Shown piece by piece: positions 26,020-32,312 of a DNA stretch of 64,000 nucleotides. The notes under the pieces are model-generated. The model was not told the DNA's origin. It saw only the letters and a program-made list of their open reading frames with translations, and did no database searches. The stretch's first letter is position 1. Each line of letters starts with the position of its first letter. Location of the stretch: the NCBI GenBank assembly GCA_022483015.1, contig JAKVOB010000001.1:1946902-2010901 (forward strand). The letters are read 5' to 3'. A program made the position numbers and the translations under genes. The DNA is from Atopobiaceae bacterium (lineage in GTDB: Bacteria > Actinomycetota > Coriobacteriia > Coriobacteriales > Atopobiaceae).

Positions 26020-26931
26020 TTAGTCTTCCTGTGCATGCTCTGCCACCGCCAAGATAAAACCTGCCAGAGTCTCCGCAGAGTTGACCACGAGGAGTGCATG
26101 ATAGTCCTTGATGAGAATCCGTCGACTTCCTAAACCATGGGAATCGCTGCATATGTTTCTCATTGACCCAACAGCCGACACGATCTTCTCGAGCCCCGAG
26201 ATGAGCTCATTGGTTCTCTTATCCATTTTCTTGTCCGCGTGCATGTCGTACAGGTCTTTGACCTGCTTATAGAGCGTTCCGATATCGCCCTTGTCTGAGG
26301 GGGTCCTCCCTTTGAGCTCTATCACGTGGCAGAATGTCTCTTCCAGAAGGGTGCGTGACTTTGTAACGGCGCTATCAAACCGGCCAGCTGCAACATCGGC
26401 CTGTGCTCGAGAAGAGAGTTCACGGATATAGTCGCTATTTACCTTGCTTAGCATCGGGGTAGCGACCGGTGAGGGGTTGTTCCGGTCCACCACGCAAAAA
26501 CCGTTGCCAACGTTGCGAAGCTCATGACCGCCATAGATGAGACGGCGATTTATCTCATCCACAGCTCTCTTGACAATGCACGCATGGGCAGGCTCGAGGT
26601 CCTCGGAAGGGACATGCGATAACTGATCTGCAAAGCCCTGTCCGTTGAAGAAGCAGCGCAGGAGGTTGGAGAATCTTCCAACCTTGATGGCATACCTCAT
26701 GAGCTCGTCCACGTATTCCCAACGGCTTGAGCCCCCGTATTCCATGGGAAGTCCGAACTTATTGGATAGGCTCACGATATCCAGACCAGATAGATACGGC
26801 ATCTTCAGGTCGTGGCCTCCTTCCTCGCCAAGAGATGTGTCTCCGTCAAGAATCGCGTAGACGTCCTTGCTAAGTAGGAGACGGTTAGGATCAGAGGGAC
26901 CTCCTCTTGTATCCGATTTACCTCCAGCCAT
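26020..26931 (-). CDS. Abi-C family abortive infection protein
   Basis: 303 residues from ATG 26931, chosen for GGAGGAG six bases upstream; an earlier in-frame start would overlap the helicase gene. The C-terminal half (DFDSAVTKSRTLLEETFCHVIELKG-like AAGRFDSAVTKSRTLLEETFCHV, then TLYKQVKDLYDMH and NICSDSHGLGS) matches the abortive infection C-terminal domain PF14355, helical and with a conserved SDxHG. The N-terminal half is unassigned. It is the last gene of a four-gene leftward operon with the split methyltransferase and helicase, 28 bases after the helicase stop. It may be the suicide arm of that system; the mechanism is unknown. Confidence 0.78.
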   Translation of the reverse strand: MAGGKSDTRGGPSDPNRLLLSKDVYAILDGDTSLGEEGGHDLKMPYLSGLDIVSLSNKFGLPMEYGGSSRWEYVDELMRYAIKVGRFSNLLRCFFNGQGFADQLSHVPSEDLEPAHACIVKRAVDEINRRLIYGGHELRNVGNGFCVVDRNNPSPVATPMLSKVNSDYIRELSSRAQADVAAGRFDSAVTKSRTLLEETFCHVIELKGRTPSDKGDIGTLYKQVKDLYDMHADKKMDKRTNELISGLEKIVSAVGSMRNICSDSHGLGSRRILIKDYHALLVVNSAETLAGFILAVAEHAQED

Positions 26932-26959
26932 CGACGACTCCTCCGTGGTAACGGCCTTC

Positions 26960-29900
26960 CTATCCCTCGAGCTTGTTCCCGAACGTCTCATCGACGAACT
27001 CCGCCAGCTTGCCCTCCGTAGCCAGCTTCGTCGAATCGGCCATGACGAAGTTCGTCTTGCAGCCCTTACCGATTTCGTTGTCGAAGCCGAGGATGAAGTG
27101 TGTGGCTATCTGATAGATGATCTCTGTCGGGGCGATACCATATACCTGCTTCTCAAGGATGTGCCTCAGTCGCTCGGCGTCATCGGGATACAGTTCCTGC
27201 ATCTTCTGACTGTTGTAGAGCCGCGTTATCACCTCGGTGATGTAAAGGCCCGACTTCATATACAAATCTGCAAAGGTATGGGATGGGTCGTCGAAGCAGC
27301 CGGGATTCTCCTCCTCGAACAAATCGACCATCTGCTTCACCACGTGCTTGGGCGTGTAAATCTGATTCGTCTTCTGTGGTGGAACGTAATCGAAGATGTC
27401 TTCCTTCTTCGAGTCATCGAAGTAGTTCGCGAGCTCGGTACGCAGGCGGATGAACTCCTTTACCGAGTCGTCAAACACCACGGGATCGAACAGATGACCG
27501 TCAAAGTGCTCGACCTCCCCGGTCTCCTCGCTCGTGAAGTCGCCGCCATCGCGGAGGAAACGGAACTGGTCAACCGAAATGCTAGTTACCTCCTGGAACA
27601 CGTCCGCCGGAATGACAGTGTCGAACGATGCGAGCGAGGTGTCCTGATTCCCATAGGCCATGAGGAACGAGGGGATGGTACGAGAGAAGCCGCGTAGGTG
27701 GTCTCGCACGCCCGTTTCAATGTCCTGCTTCTTCCTCTCCTTCTTTCCCGTCTCGACCTCGCGCACGATGTCCTCGCCAGCGCTCCTGACAAGCTCGTCG
27801 CGCGAGCTCTGGAGGGTGGTGACCAAATCCTGGTATGCCTTGACCTTGCGCTCGTCATGATCCTTGTTGATCGATTCCGATTCTTCGTCGGTTGCGGCCT
27901 GTGCAAGCGCCTCGCTACGCGACTGCTCGATCAGCCTCTTCTGAATCTTGTAGTCACCGACCTGCCTGTTCAGGGTCATCCCTGCGTCAGCCTTAACCTT
28001 TCGCTCAATCCTGTTCTTCTGGGCAGGCCTGAGTTCCTCGCCGTAATCCGACTTCGCGGCTTCGACGAGCGGTACGGAGACGTTGCTGACAAAGGCCTCC
28101 TCGAGCCTGTCGAGAAGTTCGGCGTCGTCGTCCGTGTCGACGTGGTCCTTGATGATTTCCTCGATATCCTGCTCCAGGTCCTCGGACACGTCGCCATAGA
28201 CCTTATCGCCAAAGAGGTCCGCTGCCTTCCCGATGACCTGCTCCTCCGGTATCTCCACCTCACCGTCGTCATTGATGCTCAGATCAGTGGCAGTGCCCCC
28301 GTTGATCCCCAGGTCCTTATCTGGCTCCTTGATGGGATGGAGCTGCCCGATGATGGCCAGCACCTCGGAGGGTGCGTGGAATACGTTGCTTATGTTCTGG
28401 AAGAGGAAGTCGCTCATGAAGCCACGCCTCACCACCTCACGCGAGCGGATCCTACGTGGTATGGAGAGCACCTTCTCCGCATCGAGCTCGACCATCTCAC
28501 CTTGATCGTCCTCCCCTATGACCGGGAAGAAGTTCAGCAGGGTGCGGATGTGCTCCTTGCGGGAGTCCATGTCGCCCTTGCCCGCACCGGTGTCCGAGCA
28601 AAGGTCATTGGCAAACTCCTCGAATATCGTGAGCGTACGCGCCGGATCGAAGTCGAAGACGTAGGCGTTCTCCTTGCGGAGGTACTTGCCATCCCTGCGG
28701 AACAGGCATGGGTTTTGTGCACGGAATGCCGCCTGCATGTACAGGGAGGGGCTCTTCATGTTGGACAGCATGAGCACGGCAGTCCACTCGGGAACGGTCA
28801 CGCCCGTGGTCAGTTGTCCGACTGAGAGGGTAATCGTCTTGTCGTTGTCGGCGATGGCCTTGCGCACCTTGTCGAACGACTGCTCCATGGCATCCTGGTC
28901 ATCAATGCGGCCATCGCCAGCCGCAAGGACGATCTCGTACTCGCCGAAGACCGGATGATTCTTGAGCTTCCTCGCCAGCGCCTTGGCGGAGTCCACGCGA
29001 TTGAGCATCCAGAGCGTGTGCTTGAGCTCGCCCCTGAGCTCGGGCGTGGAGAAGGGGTACTTCCTCTGCGTCGTGAGCGCGTCAAGGAACCTGTCGACGT
29101 CCTCGTTGTGCTCGAAGTGGCCATTGGCGCTCGTGGCGAAGAACTCGTTGAGGTCGAAGGCGTACTCCACCGTCTCCCCGTCGATCTCCTTGCCCCGTGC
29201 CACCTCGTCCGTGACGATGTCGGACATCTGGTAGGTGAAGAGGTTGAGCTGTGGCAGGTCGGCATAGGGGTTCGGCAGCTCGGGGTCGTCCCAGTCGCGC
29301 TTGGCCTTCTGCTCGTCGGCATACGACCAGTTGAAGATGGCGTCCTCGTCGAACTTCTCGTTCGCGATCGCCTTGAAGGGCGTACCTGAGAGGTGCAGGG
29401 TGAACTTCCTCTTGATGTGATCGAACGCGACGTCGGTCTTGTAGGTGTCCACGCCCTCGTGCGCCTCGTCGACGACCAGCACGTCCCATTCGAGCTCGGC
29501 CACCTCGTCGAGCTTGTCGTAGGTGCCTCCAAAGCGGATGGAGCCCTTGAGGTCCTGGAGGCTCACGAACTCGATGATCCTCTTAGAGGCGCCAGGTCTG
29601 TTGATATGTTCCAGGTACTCCTCGCGGGTCATGACAAAGGGTTTGTCCACAAGGGCACTGACGCTGCTGACGAAGGAGTACCCCGACTCGGTCCCGATGA
29701 ACTCGACATAGTCGTCGTACCAGGAGTTCGCGATGGCGGGCCTGTTGGTGACTATGAGCACCTTGACGGCGTCGAGCCTCTTGCAGAGGTCATACGCCGC
29801 GAGGGTCTTCCCAAAGCGGGGCTTGGCATTCCAGAGATACTCTCCCTCCTCATGGAGGCGGGCGTAGTCGGCGGTCTCCTCGACGGCCCTCCCCTGCTCG

Positions 29901-30298
29901 GAGCGAAGCGTGTACTCGCTCGCCTCCGGGGTCTCGAGCACGCCTCGGTTCCCCCGATACTCGTAGAAGCGCGAATGGGAGTCGTCCGGCGTGATCTCGA
30001 ACCACTCCGTGCCGGGCTTGTCCTCGTAATCGAGCTTGCGCAAGTAGCTGTGGAAGTCGGTGTCACGGAACGTGTCCCCGCTGCCGTCGTCGTAGACGGC
30101 GTTGCCACGCCACTCGAGCTCGTACACGACATCCGCCGTATGGGTCTGTTGAGCGATGCGGGTACCCACGTCCTGCTCGGTGTACCCGATCTTCGTCCAA
30201 CCGTCATGACGTGCGATCTCCGGAGTCGTATAGGCATATATCTCGGGAACGACACGACTCGAACTCTTGACCAGACCGGTGATGTCCTGTGCGCCCAT
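26960..30298 (-). CDS. GIY-YIG nuclease / SF2 helicase / N6-methyltransferase N-half fusion
   Basis: 1112 residues. Residues about 18-100 look like a T5orf172-type GIY-YIG domain (PEIYAYTTPEI, WTKIGYT, RIAQQ). The helicase core follows: WNAKPRFGKT (about 155-165), VVDEAH (275-280), LHLSGTPFK (302-309), and TTGVTVPEWTAVLML with YMQAAFRAQNP for motifs V-VI. The last 140 residues carry Eco57I-type methyltransferase motif X (IYTPKHVVKQMVDLF), a motif-I-like segment (FADLYMKSGLYITEVITRLY) and VYGIAPTEII, but no NPPY. NPPY lies in the gene just upstream, so the methyltransferase is split. Its ATG overlaps that gene's TGA. Likely a translocating restriction subunit. Confidence 0.82.
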   Translation of the reverse strand: MGAQDITGLVKSSSRVVPEIYAYTTPEIARHDGWTKIGYTEQDVGTRIAQQTHTADVVYELEWRGNAVYDDGSGDTFRDTDFHSYLRKLDYEDKPGTEWFEITPDDSHSRFYEYRGNRGVLETPEASEYTLRSEQGRAVEETADYARLHEEGEYLWNAKPRFGKTLAAYDLCKRLDAVKVLIVTNRPAIANSWYDDYVEFIGTESGYSFVSSVSALVDKPFVMTREEYLEHINRPGASKRIIEFVSLQDLKGSIRFGGTYDKLDEVAELEWDVLVVDEAHEGVDTYKTDVAFDHIKRKFTLHLSGTPFKAIANEKFDEDAIFNWSYADEQKAKRDWDDPELPNPYADLPQLNLFTYQMSDIVTDEVARGKEIDGETVEYAFDLNEFFATSANGHFEHNEDVDRFLDALTTQRKYPFSTPELRGELKHTLWMLNRVDSAKALARKLKNHPVFGEYEIVLAAGDGRIDDQDAMEQSFDKVRKAIADNDKTITLSVGQLTTGVTVPEWTAVLMLSNMKSPSLYMQAAFRAQNPCLFRRDGKYLRKENAYVFDFDPARTLTIFEEFANDLCSDTGAGKGDMDSRKEHIRTLLNFFPVIGEDDQGEMVELDAEKVLSIPRRIRSREVVRRGFMSDFLFQNISNVFHAPSEVLAIIGQLHPIKEPDKDLGINGGTATDLSINDDGEVEIPEEQVIGKAADLFGDKVYGDVSEDLEQDIEEIIKDHVDTDDDAELLDRLEEAFVSNVSVPLVEAAKSDYGEELRPAQKNRIERKVKADAGMTLNRQVGDYKIQKRLIEQSRSEALAQAATDEESESINKDHDERKVKAYQDLVTTLQSSRDELVRSAGEDIVREVETGKKERKKQDIETGVRDHLRGFSRTIPSFLMAYGNQDTSLASFDTVIPADVFQEVTSISVDQFRFLRDGGDFTSEETGEVEHFDGHLFDPVVFDDSVKEFIRLRTELANYFDDSKKEDIFDYVPPQKTNQIYTPKHVVKQMVDLFEEENPGCFDDPSHTFADLYMKSGLYITEVITRLYNSQKMQELYPDDAERLRHILEKQVYGIAPTEIIYQIATHFILGFDNEIGKGCKTNFVMADSTKLATEGKLAEFVDETFGNKLEG

Positions 30299-31338
30299 CA
30301 GGCCATCTCCTTCACGTGGGACTCGATGAAGGCGATTTCGTCATCATCCAGCCCATACTTCCTGTAGAGCTGCTGATCGATGTCAGAGATGGACTTTGAC
30401 CAATCGATGTCGGATGAGGAGGTGAAGTCCTGGAGAGGTATCGTTCTCCACACTTGAGCAGGACTATGCTGGGTCACTTTCCTGACGCCAAGCAAACACC
30501 GAAAGAACCTAGTCTTGTAGTATTTCCTAAGACTGTCAGCCTCTATTTCCGCTTTAAAAGGTCCAGCATTTAGAAAGGTGTCCGCCGAGCCCTCGCCGGG
30601 ATTGCCGACTATCGGCTCTGCTAGAGATTCACCATACACTCCAGAGTTGTTTGCCTCGGGAATGAACAGCTTATAGGCATCAAGGTACTCGTTGTCTTTA
30701 AGATATCGCCGCTCGATGTAGCGGTATTGCCTTCTACCGCCAAAGCGGCCGAGAAACTTGACAACATCAACTAGCGAATTCCTGTCCTTGGTGAATACGT
30801 TGGGCATCTTTTCCATAAAACTAGATGTTATTTTGGTTCTTGTCCCACTTTCGAGAATTGCCTGTACATTGAGATCATCTCTATACTCCGCAAAGAATGA
30901 CTCCGAAAACTTATAGAGACGTTGAGATCCAAAGATACTATCAAGCTTCCGCTCATGACCAACCCGCTTGTTCACCTTGCTAATAATTGAGTTTAACTCG
31001 GGATAAGCTGTAAACACTTCAATTGGACCGTAGCTTTCATTCGAGTTCCGAATCGTTACTGCTAGACCGCCCTTAATGTCGGTACCGGGAAACACTGCTG
31101 AAGAACTGGACTCATACATGAGTACCTTAAGGTGCTCGTCGCCAAGCATTCGTTCATTCCAAGACGTCAGAGTTTGTCCGGCATTAAAGAGAAACCTTCC
31201 TGGAGTGATGAGCTCAACAATGTCGCCAATTTGATACGCAGCGTCCATGAAGTCGTTGTATATAGGAGGTTTGCGACCGTTGCTATCATTCTCGCCTTGA
31301 TATGGCGGATTTCCGATAACCGCATAGAACTTCTTCAT
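30298..31338 (-). CDS. Eco57I-type adenine-N6 methyltransferase subunit (NPPY-bearing)
   Basis: 346 residues starting almost at the catalytic motif: MKKFYAVIGNPPYQGEN (NPPY at 10-13), then DIVELITPGRFLFNAGQTLTSWNERML and DIKGGLAVTIRNSNE, as in Eco57I/TaqI-type enzymes. The second half (QRLYKFSESFF, FGGRRQYRYIERRYL, then LYRKYGLDDDEIAFIESHV) resembles target-recognition and C-terminal regions. It lacks the SAM-binding motif I, which must come from a partner: the helicase C-terminus or the upstream subunit. It follows the upstream stop with a two-base gap and ends in an ATGA overlap with the helicase gene, so translation is coupled. The middle (about 30.5-31.3 kb) is visibly AT-richer than the helicase gene. 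Confidence 0.82.
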   Translation of the reverse strand: MKKFYAVIGNPPYQGENDSNGRKPPIYNDFMDAAYQIGDIVELITPGRFLFNAGQTLTSWNERMLGDEHLKVLMYESSSSAVFPGTDIKGGLAVTIRNSNESYGPIEVFTAYPELNSIISKVNKRVGHERKLDSIFGSQRLYKFSESFFAEYRDDLNVQAILESGTRTKITSSFMEKMPNVFTKDRNSLVDVVKFLGRFGGRRQYRYIERRYLKDNEYLDAYKLFIPEANNSGVYGESLAEPIVGNPGEGSADTFLNAGPFKAEIEADSLRKYYKTRFFRCLLGVRKVTQHSPAQVWRTIPLQDFTSSSDIDWSKSISDIDQQLYRKYGLDDDEIAFIESHVKEMA

Positions 31339-31340
31339 GG

Positions 31341-32312
31341 CTAGAACCCCTTACTCTTCAGCGACGCATAGGCCTGCGATTGGTTCTCCGTCCAGTCGTA
31401 AATCTGGCAGAGAGGAGCCCGCTCCTCAGGCTCCTCGTCAAGGTCAAAGAAGGACATCTGCTCGTAGTCTGCATCGTCCTGCATGGTCTCTGGTAGCTTG
31501 TCCGAGGGGACAGTTCCGGTCAACCCGTCCATCTGCCAGACGTTCCATGAGATGACCTCGGCAACGGCCATGGACTCGGCATCATCGAGACGTTTGCCCC
31601 ATTTTGTTTCCATGTACTCGGCGAGTGTTTCAAGGACATTGATCCGAGCAAGAAGCAGATTGTCTCCTTGGTACTCATAGCCATAGCTACTCTGCACCGC
31701 CCGCATCGCCCATGTCAGCCAGTCCTCATAGGTGTCAGTATTCTCGGCGACCACTCGCAGCTTCCGATCCAGAAAGCCGATGCGTCGCTTCACAGGCAAC
31801 ATATCACCAGTCACCGTGTCATAGCGTGAGCAGATGAACGGCGCCTCGCCGCAGGCGATCTCGAGCTTCGGACAATCCACGTAATCACGCCAGGTGCGCC
31901 CCTCTATCTTGCGGAACCGAATCTTTCCGCCAACCGGCTTCCATGAGGTGCCGTCTTGTGAGTTGAACACGTCAGGCCTGCCGAACCAGGCCTCGTCGAT
32001 GTCGTTGTTCATCTGGTTGCACAGCCACGAGGGCGTGAACACCTCGGCACGGCTCCTCGTGCGTCTCGACTGCCTCTCCTGCTCCTTGGCGATGCGTGGT
32101 TTGATGACACCAGAGTTGAGGCCAGAGATGGCATCCGTGGTTATCTCGTCCTGGGCCATGTAGCCTTCGCCGAGAGCCTCATATTCTGAGTCGGCCCAGA
32201 TGATGTTGTGGCCCGTCGTTCTATCCATCAATAGGGCCTCGAGCGCCATCAGCGGATAGGCCTGCTCGACGGCCTCAACAAACCCAACGTTATGTGCAGA
32301 AGGTTCGGCCAT
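31341..32312 (-). CDS. Methyltransferase-like restriction subunit M
   Basis: 323 residues, first gene of the leftward defence operon. RSRAEVFTPSWLCNQMNN (about 87-103) is a motif-X-like start. KLEIACGEAPFICSRYD (149-165) replaces motif I, and RIGFLDRKLRVVAENTD with YGYEYQGDNLLLARINVLETL follows; this is the pattern of proteins annotated restriction endonuclease subunit M. No NPPY/DPPY is present. It likely supplies SAM binding or structural support to the NPPY subunit downstream. It diverges from the mobC gene, so the 290 bases upstream (32313-32606) must hold promoters for both directions. Confidence 0.75.
   Translation of the reverse strand: MAEPSAHNVGFVEAVEQAYPLMALEALLMDRTTGHNIIWADSEYEALGEGYMAQDEITTDAISGLNSGVIKPRIAKEQERQSRRTRSRAEVFTPSWLCNQMNNDIDEAWFGRPDVFNSQDGTSWKPVGGKIRFRKIEGRTWRDYVDCPKLEIACGEAPFICSRYDTVTGDMLPVKRRIGFLDRKLRVVAENTDTYEDWLTWAMRAVQSSYGYEYQGDNLLLARINVLETLAEYMETKWGKRLDDAESMAVAEVISWNVWQMDGLTGTVPSDKLPETMQDDADYEQMSFFDLDEEPEERAPLCQIYDWTENQSQAYASLKSKGF

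Follow-up and report, generated by a model that had tools for sequence, protein, structure and literature searches.

Type ISP restriction-modification (RM) enzymes, represented by LlaGI and LlaBIII, carry on one chain an Mrr nuclease, a superfamily 2 (SF2) helicase, a helical coupler, a gamma-class N6-adenine methyltransferase and a target-recognition domain. In Type I RM systems, the motor-nuclease, methyltransferase and specificity functions are assigned to the separate subunits HsdR, HsdM and HsdS, and specificity is swapped from strain to strain by exchange of the last. Here we describe a locus related in organization to both, found in a 64,000-nucleotide stretch of DNA (the window) from the Atopobiaceae bacterium assembly GCA_022483015.1 (contig JAKVOB010000001.1, positions 1,946,902 to 2,010,901). 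The locus comprises four consecutive genes, numbered 1-4 (Table 1). The order of modules is that of Type ISP enzymes, but it is distributed over three chains and begins with a GIY-YIG nuclease instead of Mrr; the methyltransferase is cut ahead of motif IV, and an extra first half, encoded by gene 1, is added. As in Type I systems, an exchangeable specificity subunit is separate, but in the window system this subunit also bears the catalytic NPPY motif, and a separate HsdS gene was not found. Sequence comparisons and structure models indicate that genes 1-3 probably form an RM system that depends on ATP and resembles Type ISP, in which a GIY-YIG nuclease is combined with a split methyltransferase and a swappable specificity subunit; gene 4 is read as cargo.

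Relatives of gene 3 were gathered from plasmids, phages, genome contigs, whole genomes and viral contigs, and their neighbourhoods were then inspected. The genome-contig scan disclosed four loci, and more were obtained from whole genomes and viral contigs. The RM system is widespread yet patchy, being present in 13 of the 140 genomes of the family, and its named hosts include Bifidobacterium, Treponema, Enterococcus, Lactiplantibacillus and Kallipyga.

Nine residues of gene 2 precede NPPY, and gene 3 ends just ahead of the NPPY-equivalent point. The cut is placed there because catalytic residues of LlaGI are N1018 and Y1021 (PMC4872093), and the structural match of gene 3 ends at LlaBIII residue 1012. 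Pfam assigned gene 2 to Eco57I (7.2e-14) and returned zero matches for gene 1. Motifs AEVFTP and LE(I)(T)CGEAPF of gene 1 are conserved over the family, and its short homologues retain a canonical motif I. The AlphaFold model of a relative in which genes 1 and 2 are fused (L071; predicted local distance difference test score, pLDDT, 66.3) matched gamma-class adenine methyltransferases with recognition domains (CamA, Z 14.7; MmeI, Z 14.2; BrxX, Z 13.3), as well as LlaBIII residues 773-1577 (Z 12.1). When profiles of gene 1 and of the C-terminal part of gene 3 were compared, motif X alone aligned (26 columns, probability 60%), and the two are therefore not established as close homologues; their equivalence is suggested by motif order, by fusions and by the LlaBIII alignment.

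Fusions among relatives link gene 2 to either partner. Genes 1 and 2 form a single chain of about 660-720 amino acids in 11 intact loci (L006, L007, L009, L037, L047, L048, L051, L059, L066, L067 and L071). In at least three loci (L004, L040 and L081), gene 2 is joined to the C-terminus of gene 3, each time accompanied by a separate gene 1-like gene. In L041, L043 and L044, a gene 3-type first half together with gene 2 makes up a stand-alone methyltransferase with a canonical DPxCKxG motif, and in L003, L060 and L074 the gene order is 1-3-2. Wherever the upstream DNA is complete, relatives have two first halves of the type that binds S-adenosylmethionine (AdoMet; motifs X and I) per one NPPY half; exceptions are loci ended by contig edges and L042, in which upstream genes are damaged. 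The clean split recurs in several lineages (L045, L046, L058, L075 and L005), and the start and stop codons at the split often overlap. The ratio of non-synonymous to synonymous substitution rates (dN/dS) is <0.31 for gene 1 and all gene 3 domains, and 0.03-0.19 for the C-terminal methyltransferase half of gene 3, in pairs with estimable dS. Since relatives fuse gene 2 to gene 1 or to gene 3, the split is, as far as sequences can tell, real and functional.

Gene 2 differs from its neighbours in the manner of its divergence. Its residues 121-200 share 10-28% identity with most relatives, compared with about 40-95% on either side. Genes 1 and 3 of L045 and L046 are 98.2% and 98.6% identical, respectively, and their genes 2 only 52.5%; DNA identity in this pair falls from 99% to 44-52% within gene 2 only. 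The same step in gene 2 was observed in the pairs L047/L071 and L068/L069. Over 78 pairs, identity in gene 1 correlates closely with identity in gene 3 (r 0.90), whereas for the gene 2 variable domain the correlation with gene 3 is only 0.28. This pattern identifies gene 2 as an exchangeable cassette which, by its motifs, carries catalysis and putative target recognition. In six operons, neither long homopolymers nor short tandem repeats were detected that could support phase variation of gene 2. Likewise, a search for silent cassettes in 18 genomes or records found no intact second copy of gene 2, with weaker partial matches only, in one genome (G086); exchange therefore seems to take place between strains.

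L036, L049 and L057 combine a broken gene 2 with an intact gene 3, as would be expected if DNA recognition and cutting by gene 3 depended on gene 2. The near-identical operons L036, L039 and L049 carry differing lesions in gene 2: the loss of 1 nt from the run of C that encodes NPPY (L036:7003 and the identical site in L039) and, in L049, a base change to a stop codon near the equivalent of L036:7663. Of these operons, L036 and L049 retain an intact gene 3. An IS256 element (L001:4672-5856) separates gene 1 from a gene 2 without a clear NPPY start in a plasmid of Bifidobacterium longum.

In gene 3, Pfam recognized ResIII (4e-13) and a T5orf172 GIY-YIG domain (6e-4). Residues R47 and E98 of the latter are invariant across 18 relatives, and the SF2 motifs PRFGKT and DEAH are intact and conserved in the family alignment. 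The top Foldseek matches of the AlphaFold model (mean pLDDT 74.7) are to Type ISP LlaBIII (4xqk, E 1.5e-12). VIA-align placed residues 128-1111 onto LlaBIII 175-1012 (Z 16.3), a match that holds domain by domain, as the root-mean-square deviation (rmsd) of 17.6 indicates; the first ATPase lobe alone matched LlaGI 5ffj with Z 17.6 and rmsd 2.7 over 188 residues. PDB sequence searches that started from gene 3, from its profile or from a methyltransferase profile yielded no useful match, and Type ISP was reached solely via fold comparison.

As in Type ISP enzymes, a helical coupler thus follows an SF2 helicase-like ATPase, and a gamma-class adenine methyltransferase and target-recognition domain are present, though divided between chains. 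The system was not filed as Type ISP because it lacks two defining features. Three open reading frames (ORFs) replace the single polypeptide, and even fusions of genes 3 and 2 keep a separate gene 1. In place of the Mrr nuclease, the N-terminus is T5orf172 GIY-YIG, and the alignment with LlaBIII starts only at LlaBIII residue 175. Type ISP enzymes also translocate in one direction, driven by ATP, and cleave upon collision. By analogy, the core most likely works like Type ISP, without being classed as a member. Assignment to Type I is not favoured either, as neither HsdS nor HsdM was assigned by Pfam or NCBIfam among the four window proteins. The literature search turned up no account of the halves, of the two fusions, of gene 2 exchange or of a GIY-YIG/helicase/methyltransferase RM system, an absence that is weak evidence because subscription journals lay outside the search.

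Domain content, methyltransferase halves, fusions, exchange of gene 2 and the variable slot that houses gene 4 can be regarded as established at the level of sequence comparison. From these we infer the following course of events. Gene 2 would supply catalysis and target recognition, and gene 1 and the C-terminus of gene 3 would each supply an AdoMet-binding first half. Genes 1 and 2 most likely methylate host sites, and gene 3 would borrow the same gene 2 subunit to locate unmethylated sites, then translocate by its SF2 motor and cut with its GIY-YIG domain. Since target recognition sits on its own gene, exchange of gene 2 should shift methylation and restriction specificity jointly. Given that each second half is accompanied by two first halves and that both fusion types exist, the simplest account is that gene 2 is shared in turn, with gene 1 as host methylase and with the motor protein as restriction enzyme; we put this part forward tentatively, at somewhat less than even confidence.

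Several observations weigh against the proposed system or parts of it. The T5orf172 score of gene 3 barely exceeds the curated Pfam cut-off. Confidence of both structure models is moderate, the models rest on small alignments, and fold matches are best over the helicase alone. PADLOC classes the core genes as Type II/IIG. Motif I at the C-terminus of gene 3 is atypical (DLYMKSG), so that this half may not bind AdoMet. Finally, in loci that fuse genes 1 and 2, gene 3 could engage gene 2 only in competition with the covalently attached gene 1 half, a situation that favours a fixed ternary complex over sharing.

The main rival to sharing is accordingly a fixed ternary complex, in which gene 2 pairs with gene 1 alone, and the C-terminal half in gene 3, a pseudo-methyltransferase devoid of catalysis, does no more than dock the motor on the methylase. 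The 11 fused loci agree with it, and so does motif I, less canonical in gene 3 than in gene 1, which retains CGEAPF and whose short homologues are canonical. It does not explain why gene 2 is joined to the first half of gene 3 in L004, L040 and L081, nor why such a half and gene 2 form a stand-alone methyltransferase with DPxCKxG in L041, L043 and L044. We regard the ternary complex as a serious possibility, yet a doubtful one.

An ordinary Type II/IIG system without an ATP-driven long-range step would agree with the PADLOC labels. The MTase_II profiles PDLC03390 and PDLC03375 (327 and 348 positions) match gene 1 (8.9e-102) and gene 2 (1e-37), respectively, and the REase_MTase_IIG profile PDLC03626 (1359 positions) matches genes 2 and 3. 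The pieces are thus already catalogued, but as separate Type II/IIG enzymes. Type IIG enzymes are ATP-independent chains of restriction endonuclease and methyltransferase without a helicase, whereas gene 3 has an intact and conserved SF2 motor and a coupler, with its best fold match in Type ISP. We therefore consider this explanation unlikely.

Coordinates of the four genes and of their substructures are listed in Table 1. The preliminary description, based on the sequence alone, had reported four leftward genes with spacings of 2, -1 and 28 bases, and this was verified from the ORF coordinates: a gap of 2 nt between genes 1 and 2, an overlap of 1 nt (TGATG) between genes 2 and 3, and a gap of 28 nt between genes 3 and 4, which presumes that gene 4 starts with the ATG at 26931, preceded by GGAGG (an alternative start is at 26991). 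Its assignment of NPPY to gene 2 and of motif X/I segments to gene 1 and to the C-terminal end of gene 3 also proved real, the latter being conserved in relatives, and the GIY-YIG-like domain joined to a helicase was recovered by Pfam. Scans for promoters and terminators performed no better than on shuffled sequences.

Table 1. Genes and substructures of the RM locus and its cargo gene, in window coordinates.
Feature	Coordinates	Strand	Assignment	Basis
Gene 1, 323 aa	31341..32312	-	First half of a gamma-class N6-adenine methyltransferase, putatively AdoMet-binding; has motifs X, I, II and III but lacks motif IV	PADLOC, conserved motifs, fusions
Gene 2, 346 aa	30298..31338	-	Methyltransferase second half (NPPY motif IV onward) and predicted target-recognition domain; exchangeable cassette	Pfam, block identities, exchanges
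NPPY, gene 2 residues 10-13	31300..31311	-	Catalytic motif IV	Sequence reading
Variable segment, gene 2 about residues 113-205	30724..31002	-	Putative target-recognition core	Block identities
Gene 3, 1112 aa	26960..30298	-	GIY-YIG, SF2 helicase, helical coupler, methyltransferase first half	Pfam, AlphaFold model vs LlaBIII 4xqk
GIY-YIG (T5orf172), gene 3 residues 20-106	29981..30241	-	Nuclease domain	Pfam; R47 and E98 invariant
SF2 segment, gene 3 residues 129-561	28616..29914	-	Helicase-like ATPase, Walker A PRFGKT, DEAH	Pfam ResIII; LlaGI 5ffj fold match; family alignment
Long helical segment, gene 3 residues 665-930	27509..28306	-	Coupler-like	All-helical in model; position equals Type ISP coupler
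Second first half, gene 3 residues 935-1112	26963..27496	-	Methyltransferase first half (QIYTP motif X; FADLYMKSG motif I)	Conserved in relatives; purifying selection
Gene 4	26020..26931	-	AbiJ-type, C-terminal Abi_C/HEPN domain; accessory cargo by best reading, not core	Pfam, PADLOC, neighbour survey

Gene 4 shows the sequence features of AbiJ: an Abi_C domain (Pfam, 1.4e-16), the HEPN Rx4-6H motif, here of the RxxxxxxH form (RNICSDSH, which includes the SDSHG noted before), and a full-length match to the AbiJ profile of PADLOC (8.7e-67, residues 38-319). The Abi-C protein closing the array was hence correctly recognized, and PADLOC, to which a comparison of all four proteins had been proposed, assigned MTase_II, REase_MTase_IIG and AbiJ. 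What did not hold from the preliminary description is the union of all four genes in one methylation, restriction and suicide system; the part that stood is an operon-like array in which a methyltransferase split over chains is coupled with a GIY-YIG/helicase protein. A dedicated four-gene system, in which AbiJ provides suicide for the RM machinery, would be in accordance with the position of gene 4 on the same strand, 28 nt past gene 3. Linkage to RM operons is also common among HEPN proteins, including AbiJ, and a guard model of the PrrC type has been put forward (Anantharaman et al. 2013, PMC3710099). The AbiJ-RM combination is therefore not new; the window shares with the published cases an Abi_C protein with RxxxxxxH beside RM genes, seen once with this RM family. 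Recurrence of the order was checked in the 44 genomes or records that carry the RM system: genes 1-3 recurred and the Abi_C neighbour did not. The window is the sole case in which it adjoins the RM genes; 41 of the other 43 lack any Abi_C match, and two have one on another contig or about 113 kb off. The preliminary description had itself named such an absence from most relatives as grounds for refutation. Relatives of gene 4 at E<=1e-8 are missing from the 139 other genomes of the family, and no relatives of P0004 were found in viral contigs. With other defence genes occupying the slot, the single four-gene system was rejected as very improbable. The best reading from sequence is that gene 4 is a separate AbiJ-type HEPN protein in a cargo slot, an occasional passenger, which makes the earlier four-gene claim more ordinary. 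Gene 4, a predicted RNase, possibly acts as a second-line suicide module that would abort infection by cleaving RNA.

Downstream slots of relatives are mostly occupied by GmrSD (L058, L059, L068-L070, L072, L075, L076 and L081; in L082 its N-terminal domain only). These Type IV genes follow the RM system directly, often with gaps of 0-25 nt. Other occupants are PHP/AAA (L048, L037), a protein kinase (L046), SIR2 and HerA (L078), Fic (L041), the Mrr-type protein PDC-S02 (L080), DUF4357 (L067, L044) and unknown genes (L036, L047, L079); contents of L037 and L069-type loci were judged from N-terminal sequence. Two genes (437 and 403 aa) without Pfam or PADLOC match lie 3 nt past gene 3 at L036:11427-13938 and recur in L039 and L049. 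In addition, a small GIY-YIG protein overlaps the start of gene 1 or lies inside the operon in L045:5339-6001 (the PADLOC candidate PDC-S57), L046:5132-5794 and L043:10968-11651, and may be an additional accessory in the RM family. In the window, the operon is housed in an integrative mobile element (21703-46144) with a tyrosine integrase, a relaxase, an ArdC antirestriction protein, a VirB4/TraC-like ATPase, a thioester/SpaA/TQ adhesin and an IS3-type transposase, a location that fits the cargo status of gene 4.

The weakest explanation, that the genes are mutational debris of a single-chain enzyme, can point to genuine frameshift breakage in L036, L039 and L057, but recurrence of the clean split in several lineages and purifying selection on each piece make it extremely improbable.

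RM systems must alter methylation and restriction specificity jointly, since otherwise the host dies. A methyltransferase cut at the junction of cofactor binding and catalysis, with catalysis and target recognition on one swappable gene, appears to be a solution unlike HsdS. If gene 2 is indeed shared, one exchangeable gene would re-target both activities at once. The changing, GmrSD-rich slot suggests that the core RM system travels with interchangeable second-line defences. If confirmed, this organization would explain why annotation pipelines scatter the core genes over Type II and IIG, and it would offer a modular scaffold for studying specificity change.

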